Source: Streptomyces sp. NBC_00820
GTDB taxonomy: Bacteria > Actinomycetota > Actinomycetes > Streptomycetales > Streptomycetaceae
DNA length: 64,000 bases
NCBI RefSeq assembly: GCF_036347055.1
Contig: NZ_CP108882.1
Location: forward strand, 4,042,501 to 4,106,500
Direction of reading: 5' to 3'
Part shown: one piece after another, positions 946 to 35,349 of the stretch
Layout of the letters: every line of letters starts with the position of its first letter
How positions within the stretch are numbered: position 1 is the first letter of the stretch
Made by a program: the position numbers and the translations under genes
The notes under the pieces: generated by a model
The model's input: the letters and a program-made list of their open reading frames with translations, nothing else
What the model was told of the DNA's origin: nothing
Databases searched by the model: none

Positions 946-3815
<2,870 letters not shown>

Positions 3816-3819
<4 letters not shown>

Positions 3820-5051
3820 GCCCCGCTGTCCCCGGCCCGCGCCGTGCGCCCGCCCGCGGCAAGCACGCCTTCGCCGCGACCTGGTGGGGCCAGGCATGGG
3901 TGACGGCCCTGGAGGACTCCACCCTGGACTCGGGGCGCCTGTCCCGCGGACGCACCTACGCCCGCCAGGGCATGGTCGGCGCCGTCACCATCGCCCCCGG
4001 CCAGGTCAAAGCCGCCGTCCAGGGCAGCAGGCCCCGCCCCTACCGCTCCGCCGTCCACCTGCCCGTCCTCACCGACCCTCAGTGGGACACCCTGCTCGAC
4101 ACGATCGCGGCCCGCGCCGGACATCTCGCGGCACTTCTCGACGACGAGATGCCCGCCGGACTCGTAGACGACGCCCGGCACGCAGGCGTCCCACTGCTCC
4201 CACTGCCCACCGAGCTCGATCCGGAGTGCTCCTGCCCCGACTGGGGATACCCCTGCAAGCACGCCGCCGCGCTCTGCTACGCCATCGCCGCCACCATCGA
4301 CACCGACCCATTCGTGCTCTTCACGCTGCGCGGCCGCGGTCGCGAGGAGGTCTTCGCCCAGCTACGCGCACGCCGTACGGCAGCACAGGAGACCGCTGCC
4401 CGACCGGCACCTGCCGGCACCCCGGCCGCCGCCGCGTACGCCCACTGGGCCGAAGAGCCCCCCGCACTGCCCGAACTCCCGGAACCCGCTGCCTACACCA
4501 CAGCATTGCCCGTCGCCCCGCCACCCGGCACCGGCCTGGCCGCCGCGGACCTGGAACGCCTCATGGCCGATGCCACCGCGCGCGCCGCCCGGCTCCTCGC
4601 GGGCGACACCGCCGACCTGCACCTGACCCAGCACCAGGACGCCGTCCGCATCGCCGCAAGCAACCCCGGACCTGAGTGGTTCCACCACCTGATCCAGAAC
4701 ACCGGCGCCAAACCCACTGCCTTCGCACGTCTCACCCGCGCCTGGCGCCACGGCGGTCCCGCGGGCATCACCGTCGCCGAACAGCCCTACGCCCCCGATC
4801 CGACGGTGATGAAGACCGCCCGCACCGCCGTGGACGCGGCCCTCGCCGAGATGACCGACTCCCCCACACACCTCAGAACCTGGCGCAACCGCCTCACCCT
4901 CACCCACCACGGCATCCAGCTGCGTCTGGGTCCTGACGCCCGCTGGTACCCCTATCTCCGGGACGACGACGGCGACTGGTGGCCCGCGGCACCAGCCGAC
5001 AGTGACCCGGTCACCGCGCTCACCGCGGCCTGGTCGCAGAACGGGGGGTAA
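3816..5051 (+). CDS. SWIM zinc-finger protein, partner of SNF2 ATPase
   Basis: A 411-residue protein starting with the ATG that overlaps the helicase stop by 4 bp. The diagnostic SWIM motif, C-x-C-x6-C-x-H, reads CSCPDWGYPCKH around residue 132, and the following helix HAAALCYAIA is also typical. SWIM fingers bind DNA or protein and were first recognised partly through their linkage with SWI2/SNF2 ATPases in bacteria. The N-terminus has a conserved-looking WWGQAWVTALE block. The rest is rich in Ala and Pro and unassigned. The role of the pair is unknown; DNA repair or remodelling is the natural guess. Confidence 0.85.
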
Positions 5052-5091
5052 GGAAGCGATTCCCCCGCTGACCAGGTGGCGGGTGGGGGTC

Positions 5092-5331
5092 ATGGTCTTT
5101 CTCGCCGAGGCGACCGGGGTGCAGATCCTGGCTAGGGCCGTCGGAGTCGGTATGTCGGCCGTGGGTGCACTTTGCCTGTTCTTGGCCCTCCTCCTGCCCA
5201 AAGCGATAGACGAGGAGCGGAGCGAGGGAAACCTTGAGGCGGCCTCCAGGATCAAGAGAAACGCGCTGATCATCCTGGGCCTCGGCGTCCTCCTGCTCGG
5301 CGGCGGCGCCGCCCTCTGTTTCGGCAGCTGA
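5092..5331 (+). CDS. Small two-helix membrane protein
   Basis: A 79-residue protein with two hydrophobic segments, ILARAVGVGMSAVGALCLFL and ALIILGLGVLLLGGGAALCF. They are separated by a charged stretch with many Glu, Lys and Arg residues. ATG at 5092 is preferred because GGTGGGGGT lies just upstream; earlier in-frame starts would overlap the preceding gene. Family and function are not recognised. It lies 40 bp after the SWIM gene and may be co-transcribed. Confidence 0.5.
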   Translation: MVFLAEATGVQILARAVGVGMSAVGALCLFLALLLPKAIDEERSEGNLEAASRIKRNALIILGLGVLLLGGGAALCFGS

Positions 5332-25327: not shown

Positions 25328-25460
25328 TTTCGCGCGTCCGGCGACCCAACTTGGCGCCGCCAGGCCACAACACGGCGTTATGGGGTGCTTGCACACAGTG
25401 CACATGTCTTGTGATGCTATGACCGCTTTTGACGGATGATTGACCGATGAAGAGGTGGCG

Positions 25461-26345
25461 TTGACCGTGTCGGCCAGTACTGCGCCGCCCCAGGCGGAGG
25501 CCTCCGCCCCCGCCCCCGTTCCCCCGTCTCCCGCCCCCTCTCCCGACCCGTCCCCCGCCCCCGTCACCGCCCCCGAGAAACGCCGTGGCGCCGACACCCG
25601 CGCGCTGACCCAGGTGCTCTTCGGCCAGCTCAAGGACCTCACGCCGGGCACGCCGGAGCACAACCGGGTACGGGGGGCGCTCATCGAGGCCAACCTCCCG
25701 CTCGTGCGCTACGCCGCGGCCCGCTTCCGCTCCCGCAACGAGCCGATGGAGGACGTGGTCCAGGTCGGCACCATCGGCCTGATCAACGCCATCGACCGGT
25801 TCGACCCGGAGCGGGGCGTGCAGTTCCCGACCTTCGCGATGCCGACCGTGGTCGGCGAGATCAAGCGCTACTTCCGGGACAACGTCCGCACCGTCCACGT
25901 GCCGCGCCGGCTGCACGAGCTGTGGGTGCAGGTCAACAGCGCGACCGAGGACCTGACGACCGCCTTCGGACGCTCACCGTCCACCGCCGAGATCGCCGAG
26001 CGCCTCAGGATCAGCGAGGAGGAGGTGCTGTCCTGCATCGAGGCGGGACGGTCGTACCACGCCACCTCGCTGGAGGCCGCGCAGGAGGGCGACGGGCTGC
26101 CGGGCCTGCTGGACCGGATCGGCTACGAGGACCCGGCCCTGGACGGCGTGGAACACCGCGACCTGGTCCGCCACCTCCTGGTCCAACTCCCCGAACGGGA
26201 GCAGCGGATCCTGCTGCTGCGCTACTACAGCAATCTCACCCAGTCGCAGATCAGCGCGGAACTCGGGGTGTCCCAGATGCACGTCTCGCGGCTCCTCGCG
26301 CGCAGCTTCCAGCGGCTGCGCTCCGCCAATCGCATCGAGGCATGA
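25461..26345 (+). CDS. sigF: SigB/SigF-family RNA polymerase sigma factor (SigF-like)
   Basis: A 294-residue group-3 sigma factor. An Ala/Pro-rich leader (about 1-40) precedes region 2 ([26 protein letters not shown] split over two helices), region 3 with the [11 protein letters not shown] helix, and region 4 ([20 protein letters not shown]). The start is uncertain: TTG at 25461 sits 5 nt after AGAGG, while GTG at 25467 is also usable. The position between tadA and a close paralogue suggests sigF of the coelicolor order, a sporulation sigma factor. No anti-sigma gene is adjacent, so control must come from elsewhere. Confidence 0.85.
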
Positions 26346-26658
26346 CCGGCGCACGGGAGCACGGAGCGCAACACAGCAGCTCACACCGGTTCGCAAGCGG
26401 GATCGAACGGTCACCGTCGAGAGCGAATCGTGCACCGGCGCCGTTCCCGGCTGTTCTGCGCTGAAAAGCCGTCAGACCCCCTGTTTCCAGGGCCGATTCG
26501 CATCTTGCTTGTCGACATGTCACTACAGCGCGTTGCCGACATGTGACATTCTGCGGGAAGCGCGTTTGCCGTGGCTCCGGCTCCGGTATTCAGGTGAAGG
26601 CCGCGCTGCCCGGAAAAGGCAGCGCACCGCGACCGTCCCGCGACCCAAAGGGGGTGGC
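26346..26658 (+). promoter_or_regulatory. Leader region of the second sigma gene with SigB-type promoter candidate
   Basis: The 313-bp gap has no gene. GTTT (26564-26567) and CGGTAT (26584-26589), 16 bp apart, resemble the GTTT/GGGTAT promoters read by SigB/SigF-type sigma factors, 70 bp before the start at 26659. Two CGACATGT copies (26514-26521 and 26538-26545) lie just upstream and may be a regulator site. Confidence 0.5.
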
Positions 26659-27594
26659 ATGTCCGCAGACCAGGGCAGCTCGAAGGTACTCACGCCCACG
26701 AGCGAGGCAGCGCCCAAGAAGCTTGACGTTCTCGACGTCCTCGACGGCATCGAGGGCGTCACGCCTCTCGACGCCGTCCCCGCCCCGGCGGGAGCGGCCC
26801 CGGCCGCCGAACCGGCACTGCCGGCCACGGGGGACATCGACACCCGAACCCTGTCCCGCTCCCTGTTCCTGCGGCTCGCCGCACTGGACGAACACAGCCC
26901 CGAGCACGCCTACGTCCGCGACACCCTGATCGAGCTGAACCTTCCGCTCGTGCGCTACGCGGCGGCCCGCTTCCGCTCCCGCAACGAGCCGATGGAGGAC
27001 ATCGTCCAGGTCGGCACCATCGGCCTGATCAAGGCGATCGACCGCTTCGACTGCGAACGGGGCGTGGAGTTCCCGACGTTCGCGATGCCGACGGTCGTGG
27101 GCGAGATCAAGCGCTTCTTCCGCGACACCTCGTGGTCGGTGCGCGTGCCGCGCCGGCTCCAGGAGCTGCGCCTGGCCCTGACGAAGGCCAGCGACGAGCT
27201 CTCCCAGAAGCTGGACCGCTCGCCGACGGTGACGGAGCTGGCCGCGGCCCTCGGCGTCTCCGAGGAGGACGTGGTCGACGGCCTCGCGGTCGGCAACGCC
27301 TACACCGCCTCCTCGCTCGACTCCCCGGCACCCGAGGACGACGGCGGCGAGGGCTCGCTGGCGGACCGCCTCGGCTACGAGGACACCGCGCTGGAGGGTG
27401 TGGAGTACCGCGAGTCCCTCAAGCCGCTGCTGGCCAAGCTTCCGCCGCGGGAGCGCCGGATCATCATGCTTCGCTTCTTCGCGAACATGACCCAGTCGCA
27501 GATCGGCGAGGAGGTCGGCATCTCCCAGATGCACGTCTCCCGGCTGCTCACGCGCACACTGGCGCAGCTGCGGGACGGGCTCATCTCGGACTGA
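26659..27594 (+). CDS. sigN: SigB/SigF-family RNA polymerase sigma factor (SigN-like)
   Basis: A 311-residue sigma factor. ATG at 26659 follows AAAGGGGGTGG. Region 2 ([20 protein letters not shown]) and region 4 ([20 protein letters not shown]) are nearly the same as in the upstream gene, so the two arose by duplication. The leader of about 60 residues ([21 protein letters not shown]) and the acidic loop [11 protein letters not shown] are distinct. Order and family suggest sigN, which in coelicolor acts in aerial hyphae and sporulation. A SigB-type promoter candidate upstream hints at autoregulation or control by its neighbour. Confidence 0.85.
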
Positions 27595-27939: not shown

Positions 27940-28137
27940 CTACTTGAACGCGAGCCAGGCCACCGCGGCGACGACGGCCACGGCGACGACGATGCCGACG
28001 ATCAGGCCGACGCGGGGACCGGACGAGGCGGCCTGCTGCTGCTGTTGTACCGGCGGAGCCTCGTCGACGAAGGCACGGAACATCTGGGTGCTGCCTGCCG
28101 GGTCGTAATTGCCCTGAGGGCCCTGGGTGTTAGCCAT
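27940..28137 (-). CDS. Small tail-anchored membrane protein
   Basis: A 65-residue protein: MANTQGPQGNYDPAGSTQMF, a polyglutamine run (five Q), then VGLIVGIVVAVAVVAAVAWL as a single C-terminal membrane helix ending LAFK. The soluble part would face the cytoplasm. It is divergent from the MarR-type regulator operon, but its start lies 106 bp from the first MarR box. Function unknown. Confidence 0.65.
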   Translation of the reverse strand: MANTQGPQGNYDPAGSTQMFRAFVDEAPPVQQQQQAASSGPRVGLIVGIVVAVAVVAAVAWLAFK

Positions 28138-28242
28138 GGGCCGAGACACTAGCGAATCCCGGGGTGCGGCCCAAGTGCGGGGCCACCGGGACAGAAGAGG
28201 GCACGTCACCCGCGCCCACCTGCATATTTACTTTTACAATAC

Positions 28243-28325
28243 TTGCCTTTGCCAAGTTTTTGCGCCGCCATCCACCTCATTATTTGCCTGCGGCAACCAA
28301 GCACCCTTACGGTTGCCTCAAGCAA
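28243..28325 (+). promoter_or_regulatory. Three TTGCCT-type operator boxes upstream of the MarR gene
   Basis: TTGCCTTTGCCAA (28243-28255), TTGCCTGCGGCAA (28284-28296) and TTGCCTCAAGCAA (28313-28325) share the pattern TTGCCT-N3-(G/C)CAA. The second and third are palindromic. The second overlaps a plausible -10 (TATTTG at 28281, with TTGCGC at 28259). The surrounding 100 bp are unusually A/T-rich. The likely ligand-responsive repressor is the MarR protein encoded 16 bp downstream. Confidence 0.65.
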
Positions 28326-28849: not shown

Positions 28850-31393
28850 ATGGCAACAACCACACCAGCCGGTGTGCGGGCTCACGCCAAGCACGGGGGA
28901 GGCCCCGACCAGGCCCCCATGACGCACAAGCAGATCATGGAGGCGCTCTCCGGCCTGCTGCTCGGCATGTTCGTGGCCGTTCTGTCCGGCACCATCGTCT
29001 CCAACGCCCTGCCGAAGGTCATCGGCGACCTGGGCGGCGGCCAGTCCGCCTACACCTGGGTGGTCACCTCCGCCCTGCTGTCGATGACCGCGTCCACCCC
29101 GCTGTGGGGCAAGCTCGCCGACCTCTACAGCAAGAAGGCGCTCGTCCAGATAGCCCTGGTCATCTACGTCCTGGGCTCGGTGATCGCCGGCCTGTCGCAG
29201 AACCCCGCCATGCTGATCGCCTGCCGCGTGGTCCAGGGCATCGGCGTCGGCGGTCTGACCGCCCTGGCGCAGATCATCATGGCCGCCATGATCTCCCCGC
29301 GCGAGCGCGGCCGTTACTCCGGCTACCTCGGCGCCACGTGGGCCGTGGCCACCGTCGGCGGTCCGCTGATCGGCGGTGTCATCACCGACACGTCCTGGCT
29401 GGGCTGGCGCTGGTGCTTCTACGTCGGCGTGCCCTTCGCGGTCATCGCGCTGATCGTGCTGCAGAAGACCCTGCACCTGCCCGTCGTGAAGCGACAGGTC
29501 AAGGTCGACTGGGCCGGCGCCCTCTTCATCACCGCCGCCGTCTCGCTGCTGATGGTCTGGGTGACCTTCGCGGGTGACAAGTACGACTGGCTGTCGTGGC
29601 AGACGTACGCGATGGTCAGCGGGTCGATCGTGCTCGGTCTGCTCTTCGTCCTGATCGAGTCCCGCGCGAGCGAGCCGATCATGCCGCTGCGCCTGTTCCG
29701 CAACCGCACCATCACGCTCGCCTCGCTCGCTTCGCTGTTCGTCGGTGTCGCGATGTTCAGCGGCACGGTCTTCTTCAGCCAGTACTTCCAGCTGGCGCGC
29801 GACGAGTCCCCCACGATGTCGGGTGTCCTGACCATCCCGATGATCGCCGGTCTGTTCGTCTCCTCCACCGTCTCCGGCCAGCTCATCACCCGCACCGGAC
29901 GCTGGAAGGCGTGGCTGGTCAGCGGTGGCGTGCTGACGGCGGCGGGCCTGGGCCTGCTCGGCACGCTCCGGTACGACACCACGTACTGGAAGATGGCCGT
30001 CTTCATGGTGCTGGTGGGCATCGGCCTCGGCATGATGATGCAGAACCTGGTGCTCAGCACGCAGAACCAGGTGTCGGCCGCCGACCTCGGCTCGGCCAGC
30101 TCCACGGTCGTCTTCTTCCGCTCCCTCGGCGGCGCGATCGGCGTCTCCGCGCTGGGCGCGGTGATGTCCCACAAGATCACCGACTACGTCAAGGACGGCC
30201 TGGCCGCCCTGGACCCGAAGTACGCCGCCGCCCTGGCCGGTTCGAACTCCTCCGGTGAGATCCCGGACATGGACAAGCTCCCCGCTCCGCTGCGCACGGT
30301 CATGGAGAGCGCGTACGGCCACGGCATCGGCGACGTGTTCCTGATCGCGGGCTGCCTGGCGGCGGCCGCCTTCCTGATCACGCTGTTCATCAAGGAGGTC
30401 CCCCTGCGGGCCAAGAGCGCTCCGGCGCAGGACACCACCGAGCCGCAGGCCGCCGAGACGGTCGCGGCCGCCGCCCAGACGCTCGCGGCCGCCGAGGCCG
30501 CCGCGCCCGCCCCCGAGCAGGTTCCGGTCCCGGCCATGGCCGTGGCGAGCACCGAGGAGGGCACCGGGGCGGCTCCCGCCGCACAGCCCGTCGCCCTCGC
30601 GGCCACGGACACCTTCGAGCAGCCCGGCTCCGCCGGCGTCCCCGTCCACGGCTTCGTCCGCGGCGCGGAGGGTGCCCCGGTCGCGCAGGCCGCGGTCACC
30701 CTGATCTCGCTCTCCGGCCGCCAGCTGGGCCGCGCGGTCACCCGGGCCGACGGCTCCTACGCGGTCGACGCGCCGGGCACGGGCTCGTACGTCCTGATCG
30801 CCGCCGCCGACGGCCACCAGCCGCAGGCGTCCACGATCGTCGTGCAGGACGGCCCGCTGTCGTACGACATCCTGCTCAGCGGGACCAGCGGGCTGACCGG
30901 TGTGGTCCGGGCGGCCGGGAGCGCGCTGCCGGTCAAGGGCGCGATGGTGATCGTCACCGATGTGCGCGGGGACCTGCTGGCCACCGCCTCCACCGGTGAG
31001 CAGGGCGAGTTCGGCTTCGCCGACCTGGTGCCGGGCATGGTGACCGTCGCGGTCAACGCGAGCGGCTTCCGGCCGCGCGCGCTGCCGGTCGAGGTCGCGG
31101 CCGCCGGGATCACCCGGGTCGAGGCCGACCTGGACGCCGGCGCCCGGCTCCAGGGCGTCGTACGGGCCCCGCACGGCCCGCTGGCCGACGCCCGGGTGAC
31201 CCTGGTGGACCAGGCGGGCAACGTGACCGGCACGGCCACCACCGGTTCGGACGGGGCGTACGCCTTCACCGACCTGGACGGCGGCGAGTACACCGTCATC
31301 GCCACGGGCTACCCGCCGGTGGCCACCGCGCTGACCGTCTCCGGCCCCGGAGTCGACGGCCACGACATCGAACTCGCCCACCCCGGCGAGTAG
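28850..31393 (+). CDS. DHA2/EmrB-type MFS exporter fused to three beta-sandwich domains
   Basis: An 847-residue protein. Residues about 25-515 are a 14-helix drug:H+ antiporter-2 type carrier, with motif A-like GKLADLYSKKA near 90 and the motif C-like GATWAVATVGGPLIGG near 165. An Ala/Pro-rich linker (about 520-590) leads to three carboxypeptidase-regulatory-like domains at about 597-668, 680-750 and 765-835. Each opens with a GxVRxxxGxPxxxAxVxL pattern (VHGFVRGAEGAPVAQAAV, LTGVVRAAGSALPVKGAM, LQGVVRAPHGPLADARV). With 14 helices the extra domains should lie in the cytoplasm, which is unusual for this fold. Transported substrate unknown. Confidence 0.9.
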   Translation: MATTTPAGVRAHAKHGGGPDQAPMTHKQIMEALSGLLLGMFVAVLSGTIVSNALPKVIGDLGGGQSAYTWVVTSALLSMTASTPLWGKLADLYSKKALVQIALVIYVLGSVIAGLSQNPAMLIACRVVQGIGVGGLTALAQIIMAAMISPRERGRYSGYLGATWAVATVGGPLIGGVITDTSWLGWRWCFYVGVPFAVIALIVLQKTLHLPVVKRQVKVDWAGALFITAAVSLLMVWVTFAGDKYDWLSWQTYAMVSGSIVLGLLFVLIESRASEPIMPLRLFRNRTITLASLASLFVGVAMFSGTVFFSQYFQLARDESPTMSGVLTIPMIAGLFVSSTVSGQLITRTGRWKAWLVSGGVLTAAGLGLLGTLRYDTTYWKMAVFMVLVGIGLGMMMQNLVLSTQNQVSAADLGSASSTVVFFRSLGGAIGVSALGAVMSHKITDYVKDGLAALDPKYAAALAGSNSSGEIPDMDKLPAPLRTVMESAYGHGIGDVFLIAGCLAAAAFLITLFIKEVPLRAKSAPAQDTTEPQAAETVAAAAQTLAAAEAAAPAPEQVPVPAMAVASTEEGTGAAPAAQPVALAATDTFEQPGSAGVPVHGFVRGAEGAPVAQAAVTLISLSGRQLGRAVTRADGSYAVDAPGTGSYVLIAAADGHQPQASTIVVQDGPLSYDILLSGTSGLTGVVRAAGSALPVKGAMVIVTDVRGDLLATASTGEQGEFGFADLVPGMVTVAVNASGFRPRALPVEVAAAGITRVEADLDAGARLQGVVRAPHGPLADARVTLVDQAGNVTGTATTGSDGAYAFTDLDGGEYTVIATGYPPVATALTVSGPGVDGHDIELAHPGE

Positions 31394-31400
31394 TTCACCC

Positions 31401-31440
31401 CCGGCCCGTGGCGCGCGTGAAGGCGCGCGCCACGGGCCGG
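31401..31440 (+). terminator. Very strong hairpin between exporter and YceI genes
   Basis: A 17-bp perfect stem joins 31401-31417 and 31424-31440 around a TGAAGG loop; ACTCTTTGCGACCAATTTTT follows. It probably terminates most exporter transcripts, or forms a processing or attenuation point before the YceI gene. Confidence 0.85.
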
Positions 31441-31483
31441 ACTCTTTGCGACCAATTTTTAGGCTTTTACAGGGAGAAACGGG

Positions 31484-32305
31484 ATGGGACTGACCGCGAG
31501 AATCCGCACCCGGGACGGATGGGCCGTGTCGCACGCGGTCGTCACGGTGACCGACTCGACCGGCAGGCAGGTGCTGCGGGCCGAGGCCGACCCCGAGGGG
31601 GCCGTGCGGGACACCACCGCTCTGGCGCCGGGCGCCTACACGGTGATCGTGACCGCCGTGGGGTACGCGCCCGCCGCCTCCAGCGCGATCGTCACCGCGA
31701 GCGGGCGTGCCGAGGTCGGCACGGTCACGCTGGCCCGGCAGGGCGGCACCGAGCTGCCGCCGCCCGGCCCGTGGACCATCGACCCGGCCCACTCCTCCGT
31801 CGGCGCCGTCGCCCAGCACCTGGGCATCTCCAGCGTGCGCGGACGGTTCACGGAGTTCGGCGGGACGATCGAGATCGCGCCAGGTGACCTCACCAAGTCC
31901 CGCGTGGAGGCGGTGATCCGGGCCGCGACCATCGACACCGGCAACGCGATGCGCGACACGCACCTGCGGTCCGCCGACTTCCTGGACGTCGAGCGGCACC
32001 CGGAGATCACCTACACGGGCGGCGAGCTGACCCAGGCCGGCCCTGACCGGTGGACCGTGCACGGCGAGCTGTCGATGCACGGCGTCGTCCGTCCGGTCGA
32101 CCTGGACCTGGCCTACCTCGGCACCGGCGCCGACCCGTGGGGCGGCACCCGGGCCGCCTTCCGCGCCACGGCCGAACTGCACCGCGAGGACTTCGCGATG
32201 AACTACAACCAGATCCTCCAGGCCGGCATCGCCGCCATCGGCACGACCCTCAAGGTCGAGCTGGACATCCAGGCGGTCCAGGGCGACGCCCTGCCCGCCG
32301 CCTGA
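31484..32305 (+). CDS. YceI-family protein with N-terminal carboxypeptidase-regulatory-like domain
   Basis: A 273-residue protein. Residues 1-85 form a beta-sandwich of the same type as the three on the exporter (AVVTVTDSTGRQVLRAEADP, APGAYTVIVTAVGYAP). Residues about 92-268 are a YceI lipocalin-like barrel: WTIDPAHSSVGAVAQHLGIS, FGGTIEIAPGDLTKSRVEA, SADFLDVERHPEITY and FRATAELHREDFAMNYN. YceI proteins bind isoprenoid-type lipids. There is no signal peptide, so this one should be cytoplasmic. GGGAGAAACGGG precedes ATG 31484. The shared domain suggests that it meets the exporter. Confidence 0.9.
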   Translation: MGLTARIRTRDGWAVSHAVVTVTDSTGRQVLRAEADPEGAVRDTTALAPGAYTVIVTAVGYAPAASSAIVTASGRAEVGTVTLARQGGTELPPPGPWTIDPAHSSVGAVAQHLGISSVRGRFTEFGGTIEIAPGDLTKSRVEAVIRAATIDTGNAMRDTHLRSADFLDVERHPEITYTGGELTQAGPDRWTVHGELSMHGVVRPVDLDLAYLGTGADPWGGTRAAFRATAELHREDFAMNYNQILQAGIAAIGTTLKVELDIQAVQGDALPAA

Positions 32306-32396: not shown

Positions 32397-32867
32397 ATGG
32401 CACCCCACATCGCGACGAACACCCGTGTATCCCTCGACGGACTGCTGGACTTCGTACGCCCCCGCCACCGCGCGATCCTGCTCACCCGCCGCGCCGACGG
32501 CAGCCCCCAGGGCTCCCCGCTGACCTGCGGCGTGGACGACTCGGGCCGCATCGTGGTGTCCACCTACCCAGAGCGCGCCAAGACCCGCAACGCCAGGAAC
32601 GACCCCCGGGTCAGCCTGATCGTCCTGAGCGACGACTGGAACGGCCCCTGGGTCCAGATCGACGGCACCGCCGAGGTCGTGGACGCCCCCGACTCCGTCG
32701 AGCCCCTGGTCGAGTACTACCGCAACATCGCCGGCGAGCACCCCGACTGGGACGAGTACCGGCAGGCCATGGTCAAGCAGGGCAAGTCCATCATCCGGGT
32801 GACACCGGAGCGGTGGGGACCCGTGGCGACCGGCGGCTTCCCGGCCCGCCTGGCGGAGGAGGAGTAG
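32397..32867 (+). CDS. PPOX-class F420-dependent flavin/deazaflavin oxidoreductase
   Basis: A 156-residue split-barrel protein. RHRAILLTRRADGSPQGSPLT is the N-terminal strand pair. RIVVSTYPERAKTRNARNDP supplies the phosphate/F420-binding Lys-Arg block (KTRN). VSLIVLSDDWNGPWVQIDGTAEV completes the barrel, and KSIIRVTPERWGPVATGGFP is the typical end. Streptomycete members of this group usually use coenzyme F420. The substrate is unknown. ATG at 32397 gives the family-typical N-terminus; no partner gene is evident. Confidence 0.85.
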   Translation: MAPHIATNTRVSLDGLLDFVRPRHRAILLTRRADGSPQGSPLTCGVDDSGRIVVSTYPERAKTRNARNDPRVSLIVLSDDWNGPWVQIDGTAEVVDAPDSVEPLVEYYRNIAGEHPDWDEYRQAMVKQGKSIIRVTPERWGPVATGGFPARLAEEE

Positions 32868-32992: not shown

Positions 32993-33787
32993 TCAGCCGC
33001 GGGCCACCATCGCCTCGATGCCGGCGATCAGCAGGTCCAGGGCGAAGACGAAGTCGCGGTCCATCATCTCCGCGACCGTGTCCCCGCCCCGGGCCGCCAT
33101 GATGTCCCTCGACTCCCGGTACACCTCGGCGGACCCCAGGGCCTCGGACACCAGGCTCATGGCCTGCTGGAAGTACTCGTCCGCGCTCAGTCCCGTGTCC
33201 GCGATCCGGGCGAAGAAGTGGCCCTCGATCGTGCCGTAGCCGTACACGAACTGGAAGACGGCCGAGATCGCCCCCGTCACCCCGTGCGCGGGCAGTCCCG
33301 TGCGGCGGACCACCCGCTGGACCACCCGGGAGAACGCGAGCGAGTTCGGGCCGATGTTGAGGAAGCGCCCGGCGAGCGGGGACAGCCAGGAGTGCCGCAC
33401 CAGCAGCGCCCGGTACTCGGCGGCCAGCCCGCGCAGCTGGTCCCGCCAGCCGGCGTCCGGGTCCTCCAGGTCGGGCAGCGGCAGCTCTCCGAAGGCCGCG
33501 TCCAGGGCGAGTTCGAGCAGGTCGTCCTTGGTGTCGACGTACCAGTACAGGGACATCGCGGTGACGTTCAGCTCGCCGGCGAGGCGCCGCATGGAGAACT
33601 TCTCCAGCCCGTCGGCGTCCAGCAGCCGTACGGACACCGCGGTGATCCGCTCCCGGTCGAGCCCCGAGGGCTGCCCGCCGCGCCCACCGCGCCGGTCCTG
33701 CCGCTCCTGCCGGTCGTGCCGGTCGTGCCGGTCCTTCGCGTCCAGCCAGACGCTGCCCCGCGCCGCCCCCGCACCCGCCTTCGCCAT
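32993..33787 (-). CDS. TetR-family transcriptional regulator with TetR_C domain
   Basis: A 264-residue repressor-type protein. A charged N-terminal tail with HDRHDRQERQDRRGG repeats is followed by the DNA-binding domain: ITAVSVRLLDADGLEKFSMRR, then LAGELNVTAMSLYWYVDTKDDLLELA near residues 65-95. The remaining 165 residues form the ligand-binding and dimer domain of the tetracycline-repressor C-terminal type (GYGTIEGHFFARIADTG). It lies 123 bp after the MFS gene on the same strand. The 38-bp palindrome at the exporter start is its most probable operator. Confidence 0.85.
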   Translation of the reverse strand: MAKAGAGAARGSVWLDAKDRHDRHDRQERQDRRGGRGGQPSGLDRERITAVSVRLLDADGLEKFSMRRLAGELNVTAMSLYWYVDTKDDLLELALDAAFGELPLPDLEDPDAGWRDQLRGLAAEYRALLVRHSWLSPLAGRFLNIGPNSLAFSRVVQRVVRRTGLPAHGVTGAISAVFQFVYGYGTIEGHFFARIADTGLSADEYFQQAMSLVSEALGSAEVYRESRDIMAARGGDTVAEMMDRDFVFALDLLIAGIEAMVARG

Positions 33788-33910
33788 CGACGCACCCTCC
33801 TGGAACTCCGGCCATCCCTCACGATGCTAGGCGCCGTCCGGGGGGCGGAGGGAACCGCGCTACCGGCCACGGTGAACCCGCGGCCGCGCGCCCGCCCCTG
33901 CCCCCGGCTC

Positions 33911-35311
33911 TCAGGCGGCCGCCCGCTCCGCGCGCCGCAGCAGCCCCGCCGCCAGCAACCCCCCGACCAGCACGGCGACGGCCCCCACCAGCTGCCCGGC
34001 CCCCAGCCCGGACGCCAGGGACTTCCCCGAGGCGACGGAGGAGCTGAGCACGGCCCCCAGCACGGCCACGCCGAGCCCGTTGCCGAACTCGGCCAGCGTG
34101 CCGTTGATCCCGGCCCCCACTCCGGCCTTCTCCGGCGGGATCGCGCTCATGATGGCGTGCGCCATGGCCGGGTTGGCGACCGCACACCCCACCCCGATCA
34201 GCACCAGACCGAGCAGCGTCCCCGCGTACCCACCGGAGTCCAGCTCCGCGATGGACACCAGCCCGAGCGCCATCACCACCATGCCCAGCGCGATCGACAC
34301 CGGCGTCCCCAGCCGCGCCGCCCACTTCGCCGACAGCCCGGTGAAGTTGAGCAGGACGACCGACAGCGCCAGCGGTGCCGTGCGCAGTCCGGCCTCCAAC
34401 GGGCCGTATCCGAGGACGGACTGCAGATGCTGGGTCAGCAGGAACAGCGCCCCGCCCATCCCGAAGGTGATGAGCACGGCCCCGGCGACCGCCCCCGTGA
34501 ACCTGCGGTTCCGGAAGAACTGGAGGTCGACCATCGGCTCCTCGGTCCGGCTCTCCCAGAGCGCGAAGAGACCGAGCGCCACCACCGCCACACCCGCGGC
34601 GCCGAGCACCCGCGGCGAGGTCCAGCCGTGCCGCGGACCGGAGATGACCGCGAACACCAGCGAGGCCATGCCGACGGTCGACAGCAGCGCGCCGAGCAGG
34701 TCCGGACGGCCACCGCTCACGGGCGGGTTCTTCGACTCCGGTACGAGCACCACCGCCGCGGCCACGCCCAGCGCCGCCACCGGGATGTTGATCAGGAAGA
34801 TGGCGCCCCACCAGAAGTGGTCCAGTACGAAGCCGCCGATGAGTGGGCCGGCCGCGAAGCCCAGCGAGTTCACCGCGCTCCAGATCCCGATCGCCTTCGG
34901 CTGCTCCTCGGGCGCGAAGATCTGCATCGCCACGGCGAGCGTGGTGGTCAGCAGCAGCGCCCCGCCGACGCCCATGCCGGCCCGCGCGGCGATCAACTGG
35001 CCGGTGGTGTCGGCGAGTCCGGCCACCAGCGAGCCGATCCCGAACAGGGCGAGCCCCGCGATCAGCATCTTCTTGCGGCCGTACCGGTCGGCGGCGCTGC
35101 CCGCGGTGAGCAGCAGGCCGGACTGCACCAGGGAGTAGGCGTTGATCATCCACTGGATGTCGGAGGTGGCCGCGTGCAGCGCGCGGGTGAGGGAGGGGAT
35201 GGCCACGTTCAGGACGGTGTTGTCCAGCAGCACGGTGAGCTGGGCGAGGCAGATGACACCGAGGATCAGCCAGCGCTGGGGATGGCCTGCGGCAGGGGTC
35301 GTACGCGACAT
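33911..35311 (-). CDS. MFS drug-exporter, DHA2 family
   Basis: A 466-residue carrier of the EmrB/QacA group with about 14 helices. LLDNTVLNVAIPSLTRAL is the membrane motif D1 region. AADRYGRKKMLIAGLALFG is motif A between helices 2 and 3. WSAVNSLGFAAGPLIGGFVLD is motif C, diagnostic for antiporters. ATG at 35311 (MSRTTPAAGHPQ) is preferred; a GTG three codons earlier lies within the palindrome. No ribosome-binding site is visible, so the message may be leaderless. The adjacent TetR gene suggests substrate-induced drug export. Confidence 0.9.
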   Translation of the reverse strand: MSRTTPAAGHPQRWLILGVICLAQLTVLLDNTVLNVAIPSLTRALHAATSDIQWMINAYSLVQSGLLLTAGSAADRYGRKKMLIAGLALFGIGSLVAGLADTTGQLIAARAGMGVGGALLLTTTLAVAMQIFAPEEQPKAIGIWSAVNSLGFAAGPLIGGFVLDHFWWGAIFLINIPVAALGVAAAVVLVPESKNPPVSGGRPDLLGALLSTVGMASLVFAVISGPRHGWTSPRVLGAAGVAVVALGLFALWESRTEEPMVDLQFFRNRRFTGAVAGAVLITFGMGGALFLLTQHLQSVLGYGPLEAGLRTAPLALSVVLLNFTGLSAKWAARLGTPVSIALGMVVMALGLVSIAELDSGGYAGTLLGLVLIGVGCAVANPAMAHAIMSAIPPEKAGVGAGINGTLAEFGNGLGVAVLGAVLSSSVASGKSLASGLGAGQLVGAVAVLVGGLLAAGLLRRAERAAA

Positions 35312-35349
35312 GCCGTACACCGTATAGGACCTGCTATACGGTGTACGGC
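35312..35349 (-). promoter_or_regulatory. 38-bp palindromic operator at the exporter start
   Basis: GCCGTACACCGTATAG (35312-35327) and CTATACGGTGTACGGC (35334-35349) are perfect inverted repeats with a 6-bp centre. The palindrome directly abuts the ATG at 35311, and its TATACG elements could serve as the -10. TetR binding would block the promoter. Confidence 0.75.

Follow-up and report, generated by a model that had tools for sequence, protein, structure and literature searches.

A MarR-controlled exporter with a three-domain tail and its possible YceI lipocalin partner in Streptomyces

The MarR-family regulator SAV4189 and the exporter SAV4190 of Streptomyces avermitilis form an operon that has been known since 2018. 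The repressor protects two footprinted sites, A (-82 to -59) and B (-41 to +5), numbered from a start site that precedes the ATG by 22 nt, and is released by hygromycin B and thiostrepton; deletion of the exporter gene raises the avermectin yield by about 56–67%, from which the authors reasoned that avermectin is not the exporter's substrate (PMC6036246). In the main text of that paper SAV4190 figures as an efflux protein without an assigned substrate, and the terms 'YceI' and 'sav_4191' do not appear. In S. coelicolor, novobiocin raises the expression of sco4031 and sco4032 (PMC6637917). For the YceI family, an isoprenoid or a quinone has been reported in the barrel of most solved members, with isoprenoids and ubiquinone-8 found in several of them (PMC9113575), and in Burkholderia the YceI lipocalin BcnA sequesters antibiotics (PMC5350466) and forms with LcoA a lipid-peroxide defence system (PMC9113575). 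Here we analyse a window of 64,000 nt from Streptomyces sp. NBC_00820 (contig NZ_CP108882.1, positions 4,042,501 to 4,106,500, forward strand; part of an 8.1-Mb single-contig genome), which carries a MarR gene, a gene for an exporter of the major facilitator superfamily (MFS) ending in three CarboxypepD_reg domains (PF13620, CRDs for short), and a gene that joins one CRD to a YceI barrel. We propose, with a probability of about 40%, that these genes form an export unit that drugs would induce through the MarR regulator, with the YceI lipocalin staying in the cytosol and using the shared CRD as a docking domain to cooperate with the exporter.

The three genes run in the same direction (Table 1), with only 13 nt between the end of the MarR gene and the start of the exporter gene, and the exporter and CRD-YceI frames are gene-like, each with a third-position GC content of 0.96. 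In Pfam searches, the exporter matches MFS_1 with 162.8 bits (cut-off 33.4) and CarboxypepD_reg in three stretches with 120.9 bits (gathering cut-off 32.3). The following protein matches YceI at aa 97–264 with 150 bits (cut-off 23.7) and CarboxypepD_reg at aa 3–83 with 33.2 bits, barely above the cut-off of 32.3. Periplasmic members of the YceI family have a secretion signal, whereas the first 45 residues of the window protein contain no signal-peptide-like stretch (best 15-aa hydropathy 0.58). These results bear out the first-pass annotation of the window, which had described a three-CRD exporter followed by a CRD-YceI protein lacking a signal peptide. The same domain combination was present in 120 of 120 relatives in two listings of nearest kin (the best 120 of 3183 and the best 120 of 5238), so the architecture does not arise by chance. 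The structure model of the CRD-YceI protein is good (mean predicted local distance difference test score, pLDDT, 85.4). In Foldseek searches its barrel matched the solved YceI proteins 7bwl, 1wub, 1y0g and 5ixg/5ixh, with template modelling scores by target length of 0.89 for 1y0g and 0.86 for 1wub, and its CRD matched the transthyretin-like domains of carboxypeptidases (1qmu, 5aq0); the barrel is thus similar to YceI members for which isoprenoid or drug binding has been described (PMC5350466, PMC9113575). The exporter model is poor (mean pLDDT 50.2) and usable only in three beta-sandwiches (block pLDDT about 63–86), and its membrane part was left out of the evidence.

On sequence grounds, the MarR and exporter genes are the orthologues of the SAV4189/SAV4190 operon, SCO4032/SCO4031 in S. 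coelicolor, because operators lie at the published offsets and the divergent gene matches SCO4033. Three 13-bp palindromes (TTGCCYKHRSCAA) lie upstream of the MarR gene, placed as in the SAV4189 footprints: operator a falls in site A, b1 in site B, and b2 in site B to within one base, an assignment that assumes the start-site position of S. avermitilis. The third operator (28313) has one mismatch to the published consensus, at a degenerate position. With a looser pattern, 61 of 75 upstream regions contained three operators and the other 14 two. The last segment of the divergently encoded small protein is very similar to the part of SCO4033 shown in PMC3087755, and a divergent unknown membrane gene, sav_4188, occupies the equivalent place in S. 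avermitilis (PMC6036246); the SCO4033-type gene of the window shares its promoter region with the MarR gene. An assignment of the locus to SCO4121/SCO4122 was rejected, as the neighbours fit SCO4031–SCO4033, and by its number sco4030 is presumably the YceI gene. A scan for sigma-70 promoters gave no match. The first-pass annotation knew of no described system of this kind, which has to be corrected for the MarR-exporter operon, in print since 2018 (PMC6036246, the one paper among the matches listed that names SAV4190), and appears to hold for the rest: in the open-licence literature we found no discussion of the CRD tail or the YceI partner of this exporter nor, by titles and abstract openings, any system linking YceI, CarboxypepD_reg and an MFS exporter.

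The association of the exporter tail with the CRD-YceI protein, proposed in the first-pass annotation together with a check of its occurrence across species, is borne out by a survey of three groups: Streptomyces, the family of genome G031 (Nocardia and relatives; G031 matches Nocardia carnea at 100%), and the order of genome G087, another actinomycete order that we take to be Streptosporangiales. A three-CRD block adjoins the CRD-YceI gene in 107 of 108 loci, counting two partly readable blocks, one with a run of N in the CRD region (G415) and one at a contig edge (G432), and the two are also absent together, as described below. In Streptomyces, the block lies 15–458 bp upstream of the YceI gene at 69 of 70 loci at the cut-offs used, the 70th being G415, recognised on inspection. 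At those cut-offs a genus sample of 101 genomes had both in 68, the YceI gene only in 1, the block only in 2 and neither in 30; in the odd genomes G469 and G496 the YceI gene is in place and matches only in broken pieces. The CRD-YceI gene was found in 24 of 150 genomes of the G087 order, with the block adjoining at 25 of 25 loci, and in 12 of 151 genomes of the G031 family, with the block adjoining in 11 of the 12. A class sample (118 genomes) held the CRD-YceI orthologue in 11 (8 of 8 of the genus) and the three-CRD block in 19, and all 11 have the block beside the YceI gene. The phylum sample, which shares genomes with it, held the orthologue in 9 of 198, a hit in G628 to aa 58–266 only being left uncounted. 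The one other locus among the 108, that of G112, has CRD-YceI beside a three-CRD block too. Around 19 plain-YceI loci (L112–L130), no three-CRD block was found within flanks of up to 1.5 kb, shorter in five.

The exporters that accompany this pair are not all the same. In G141, G180, G202 and G253 a soluble three-CRD protein comes first, followed by CRD-YceI and then by a three-CRD exporter; a MarR match precedes the operon in G180 and G253. In G187 the exporter stands first. The exporter cores of these variant operons are only 25–28% identical to that of the window, which is the level of unrelated DHA2 exporters (26–28%). The soluble three-CRD proteins of the same operons (L206, L207, L208, L209 and L210) have no membrane segment and are adaptor candidates, with lengths of 286–324 aa in the three of five whose start could be called. 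Among loci mostly found with a three-CRD query, the number of CRDs is three in 18 of 18 exporters, three in 5 of 5 soluble frames and one in 14 of 14 YceI proteins. When 83 CRDs are placed on a tree, 13 of the 14 YceI CRDs form one group (96/99), which marks the CRD-YceI fusion as old and conserved, with exporters that differ; in exporters and soluble proteins, the first CRDs stand apart from the second and third, with a weak base (61/80).

Where the unit is missing, tail and YceI gene are missing jointly. We looked at 20 of 30 unit-less Streptomyces genomes, and 19 of them retain an orthologous exporter without CRDs (65–81% identity), preceded by a MarR match in 16. These exporters stop 7–53 residues beyond the residue matching aa 520 (120 in G413), and no CRD or YceI gene was found within the fetched 6–9 kb. 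At the same place lie a sigma gene (12 of 19), a small membrane gene (16 of 19) and a TetR gene (16 of 19). In a tree of exporters (19 tailless, 29 tailed and 3 outside rows; 3 short rows dropped), the tailless state needs 4 changes (3–5 in bootstraps, at least 2 forced). Since 19 genomes keep the bare exporter, its core evidently manages without CRDs or YceI. This favours an explanation that we rank second and regard as unlikely, in which the CRD-YceI protein would soak up hydrophobic drugs or lipids near the membrane, as BcnA sequesters antibiotics (PMC5350466), the CRDs would only cluster or localise it, and the exporter would pump free substrate alone. However, a free buffer would need no tail on the exporter, CRD and barrel are kept in one protein in 239 of 240 listed relatives, and in G434 tail and YceI were lost separately. 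In this genome the last 14–17 residues of CRD3 and the stop are followed by a spacer and by 23 residues left over from the C-terminal end of YceI (E 3e-5), which means that the CRDs and YceI disappeared in two separate events. Two losses in one lineage are expected if tail and YceI are each useless without the other. G413, where a long linker ends in the exact last 9 tail residues (E 0.17, weak), YceI is missing and the PNPOx gene is present in the orientation opposite to the exporter, is a weak second case.

Several observations weigh against a functional unit. Of the 19 tailless loci, 18 also lack the PNPOx gene that follows YceI in the window, and since tail and YceI adjoin, a single block deletion reaching from the tail to beyond YceI would be enough for at least 17. 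In Streptomyces, a strong conserved hairpin parts the exporter and YceI genes (among the 80 such regions that are at least 60 nt long, 78 fold with z below -2), and a separate MarR operator before YceI had to be rejected, as none of 81 intergenic regions contains an exact one. The published table in which sco4031 and sco4032 appear as induced by novobiocin, which may be a selection, lacks the presumed YceI gene sco4030, and the text of that paper does not mention it either (PMC6637917). In the 20 unit-less genomes, paralogues of the three-CRD protein occur in 10 and of CRD-YceI in 12 (both 6, three-CRD only 4, CRD-YceI only 6, neither 4); they occur independently of each other, which shows that a CRD tail can in some cases do without a YceI gene beside it. 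One of the 240 listed relatives (P0331) shows YceI alone, G179 (Nocardia) has CRD-YceI without a three-CRD protein within 13 kb, and the window's own genome also encodes a single-CRD MFS protein (L097, about 2883–5228, 27% identical in the core), which adjoins another MFS gene on the opposite strand. The hairpin, the loss of PNPOx and the independent paralogues are what favours the explanation that we rank third and hold to be quite unlikely: history only, with generic CRDs, joint losses by single block deletions, and two proteins with separate tasks. It would have to account for an adjacency kept in three actinomycete groups with different exporters, for exporter and YceI frames that outside Streptomyces overlap or nearly touch in many loci, for the 19 plain-YceI loci with no three-CRD block in the fetched flank and for the two losses in G434; moreover, PNPOx lies within 107 bp of YceI in just 36 of the 78 tailed loci that have it. 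The hairpin of the window is itself a possible attenuator. A single-polypeptide fusion of exporter and YceI was rejected, as the long open frames ran through the neighbouring gene and starts and stops are distinct.

The proposed unit requires that the CRDs of both proteins meet in the cytoplasm. The exporter core has 13 membrane segments by hydropathy scan, to which one more (aa 66–85) was added by eye, and the tail is without a clear membrane segment apart from a weak peak of 1.39 (best 19-aa mean; aa 684–702) that sits in a strand of CRD2. If 14 core segments are assumed, lysine and arginine number 23 in 150 aa of inside loops, counting the tail only to aa 544, versus 11 in 127 aa of outside loops, and by this positive-inside count the C-terminus would be cytoplasmic. 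The exporter CRDs are thus predicted to face the cytoplasm, as the first-pass annotation had placed them, and the three-CRD proteins of relatives that have no membrane segments agree with this. Mean pairwise identity is 0.82–0.89 in the exporter CRDs, 0.84 in the membrane core and 0.46 in the linker (73 Streptomyces-type rows, the window plus 72 of 80 loci ranked by YceI identity); the CRD of the YceI protein reaches 0.92, and the YceI figures lean high because of this ranking.

MFS exporters are generally taken to catch their substrate from the membrane or the cytosol unaided. In the docked mechanism that we propose, a drug would be sensed and the MarR protein would release the operon, as published for SAV4189. 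The single CRD of the YceI protein would bind the three-CRD exporter tail, directly or, in some relatives, through the soluble three-CRD protein. The barrel would take up a hydrophobic molecule, perhaps an antibiotic entering the cell, perhaps a lipid or polyketide intermediate of the cell's own, and the loaded YceI protein would present it to the exporter or hold it until export. MarR operators, three-CRD exporter, neighbouring CRD-YceI gene, lasting adjacency and joint absence are seen in the sequence; from these we infer the binding of the YceI CRD to the tail and the delivery by the barrel. The docked carrier ranks first among the explanations considered. A bolder reading, in which a soluble lipocalin loaded with hydrophobic molecules serves as a cytosolic-side substrate-binding protein for an MFS exporter, its transthyretin-like domain plugging into the three-domain tail, and in which this docking module is movable and reused with different exporters in several actinomycete lineages, seems rather unlikely to us. 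The isoprenoid or quinone-like cargo named in the first-pass annotation is unsupported: nothing in the locus points there or identifies a ligand, and the drugs published as signals for the MarR orthologue are hygromycin B and thiostrepton (PMC6036246). Such a cargo is still conceivable, since molecules of this kind are often present in YceI barrels (PMC9113575). Antibiotics and hydrophobic intermediates fit this regulation better. The earlier interpretation thus stands for the cytoplasmic CRDs and for the link between tail and YceI, and finds no support for the cargo and only half for the novelty. Fourth in rank, and improbable in our view, is a YceI protein that binds a quinone or lipid as a ligand-loaded sensor or redox part and switches or protects the exporter through the CRDs with no handover of cargo. 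The isoprenoids and ubiquinone-8 of other YceI barrels would suit it, as would BcnA-LcoA, where linkage or fusion couples YceI to a partner in the membrane (PMC9113575), but PNPOx, the sole possible redox gene that we followed, is not a constant neighbour.

The features of the locus are collected in Table 1. The six genes in its profile scan were MarR, MFS, CRD-YceI, PNPOx, TetR and MFS, and no HlyD-type adaptor was found among them. Two adjoining sigma factor genes (25440–26345 and 26509–27594; regions 2, 3 and 4) lie just upstream of the unit. A PNPOx-fold gene (32397–32867) follows the YceI gene, and further downstream a TetR regulator stands beside a second MFS exporter (32993–35320, minus strand), 26% identical to the first.

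Table 1. Coordinates of the features of the locus within the window
Feature	Position	Strand	Basis
Divergent small protein with C-terminal membrane segment, tail-anchored candidate	27940..28209	-	ORF; SCO4033 orthologue by segment match
MarR operator a (TTGCCnnnnSCAA)	28243..28255	+	Pattern match
MarR operator b1	28284..28296	+	Pattern match
MarR operator b2	28313..28325	+	Pattern match
MarR-family regulator, SAV4189/SCO4032 orthologue, 164 aa	28342..28836	+	PF01047; operators, neighbour
Three-CRD MFS exporter of 847 aa, orthologous to SAV4190/SCO4031	28850..31393	+	Pfam, hydropathy
Exporter membrane core, aa 32-514, 14 segments	28943..30391	+	13 by scan, one by eye
Exporter variable Ala/Pro-rich linker, aa 515-596	30392..30637	+	Low pairwise identity
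Exporter CRD1	30638..30883	+	Pfam; model beta-sandwich, block pLDDT about 72-86
Exporter CRD2	30884..31141	+	Pfam; model
Exporter CRD3	31142..31390	+	Pfam; model
GC-rich 17-bp hairpin, terminator or attenuator candidate	31401..31440	+	Folding z -5.2
CRD-YceI protein, 273 aa, no signal peptide	31484..32305	+	ORF, Pfam, hydropathy, model
N-terminal CRD of YceI protein	31484..31738	+	Pfam; model
YceI barrel	31772..32275	+	Pfam; Foldseek to 7bwl, 1wub, 1y0g

Related genes occur elsewhere. The genome of the window has a second CRD-YceI gene (L095 5396–6355; G000:C1 about 2904895–2905854), 44% identical, flanked by genes that were read as holA-like and comEC-like without a family search, and with no exporter within 13 kb. 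It also has a second three-CRD exporter (L096 4439–6916; G000:C1:6654938–6657415), 39% identical in the core and 51% in the tail, with no YceI gene alongside; the gene after it resembles a large signalling protein (no family search made). In G018, L166 5526–6791 encodes a protein of 421 aa with three CRDs 62% like the exporter tail and the membrane core unmatched. In G081, L163 5824–9297 has an exporter core 61–62% identical to that of the window and a distant tail (35%), and the only YceI hit listed for that genome is a plain one.

If the proposal is true, a docked, dedicated cytosolic carrier would be a new way of feeding an MFS exporter, and a YceI lipocalin would gain a cytosolic job. Since some natural strains lack tail and YceI, the question can be put to a direct test. 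For the operon that has been engineered for higher avermectin yield in an industrial strain, the YceI gene adds a testable second half (PMC6036246).

How does this locus compare with the systems already described? Among exporters, the best NCBIfam scores are those of Tcr3 (239.9 bits), OtrB (222.5) and the EmrB subfamily (216.4, under the cut-off of 230.2 of TIGR00711, EmrB, DHA2 family), and the window exporter stays below the curated cut-off in all 25 models shown of 61 matched. The likeness to these DHA2 drug exporters is one of the membrane core; exporters of the Tcr3, OtrB and EmrB types are not known to have a CRD tail. Among solved YceI proteins, TT1927b of Thermus thermophilus (1wub, titled a polyisoprenoid-binding protein) is the closest profile match to the barrel and 37% identical in the fold match; it is a lone barrel of 176–178 residues without a CRD, and the window protein adds one. 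The SAV4189-SAV4190 operon of S. avermitilis shares with the locus the MarR-exporter order, the placement of its three 13-bp operators and a divergent small membrane gene, and its deletion design implies an exporter gene of ~2.5 kb, in line with that of the window (PMC6036246). In BcnA/BcnB-LcoA of Burkholderia, an antibiotic-induced YceI lipocalin that binds hydrophobic molecules is genetically linked, and sometimes fused, to a membrane partner, as the window YceI adjoins the exporter (PMC5350466, PMC9113575). The descriptions of that system in these two sources do not mention CRDs. BcnA and BcnB are secreted or periplasmic and their partner is a cytochrome b561, whereas the window protein has no signal peptide, its neighbour is an MFS exporter and cytochrome b561 is not among the six genes scanned.

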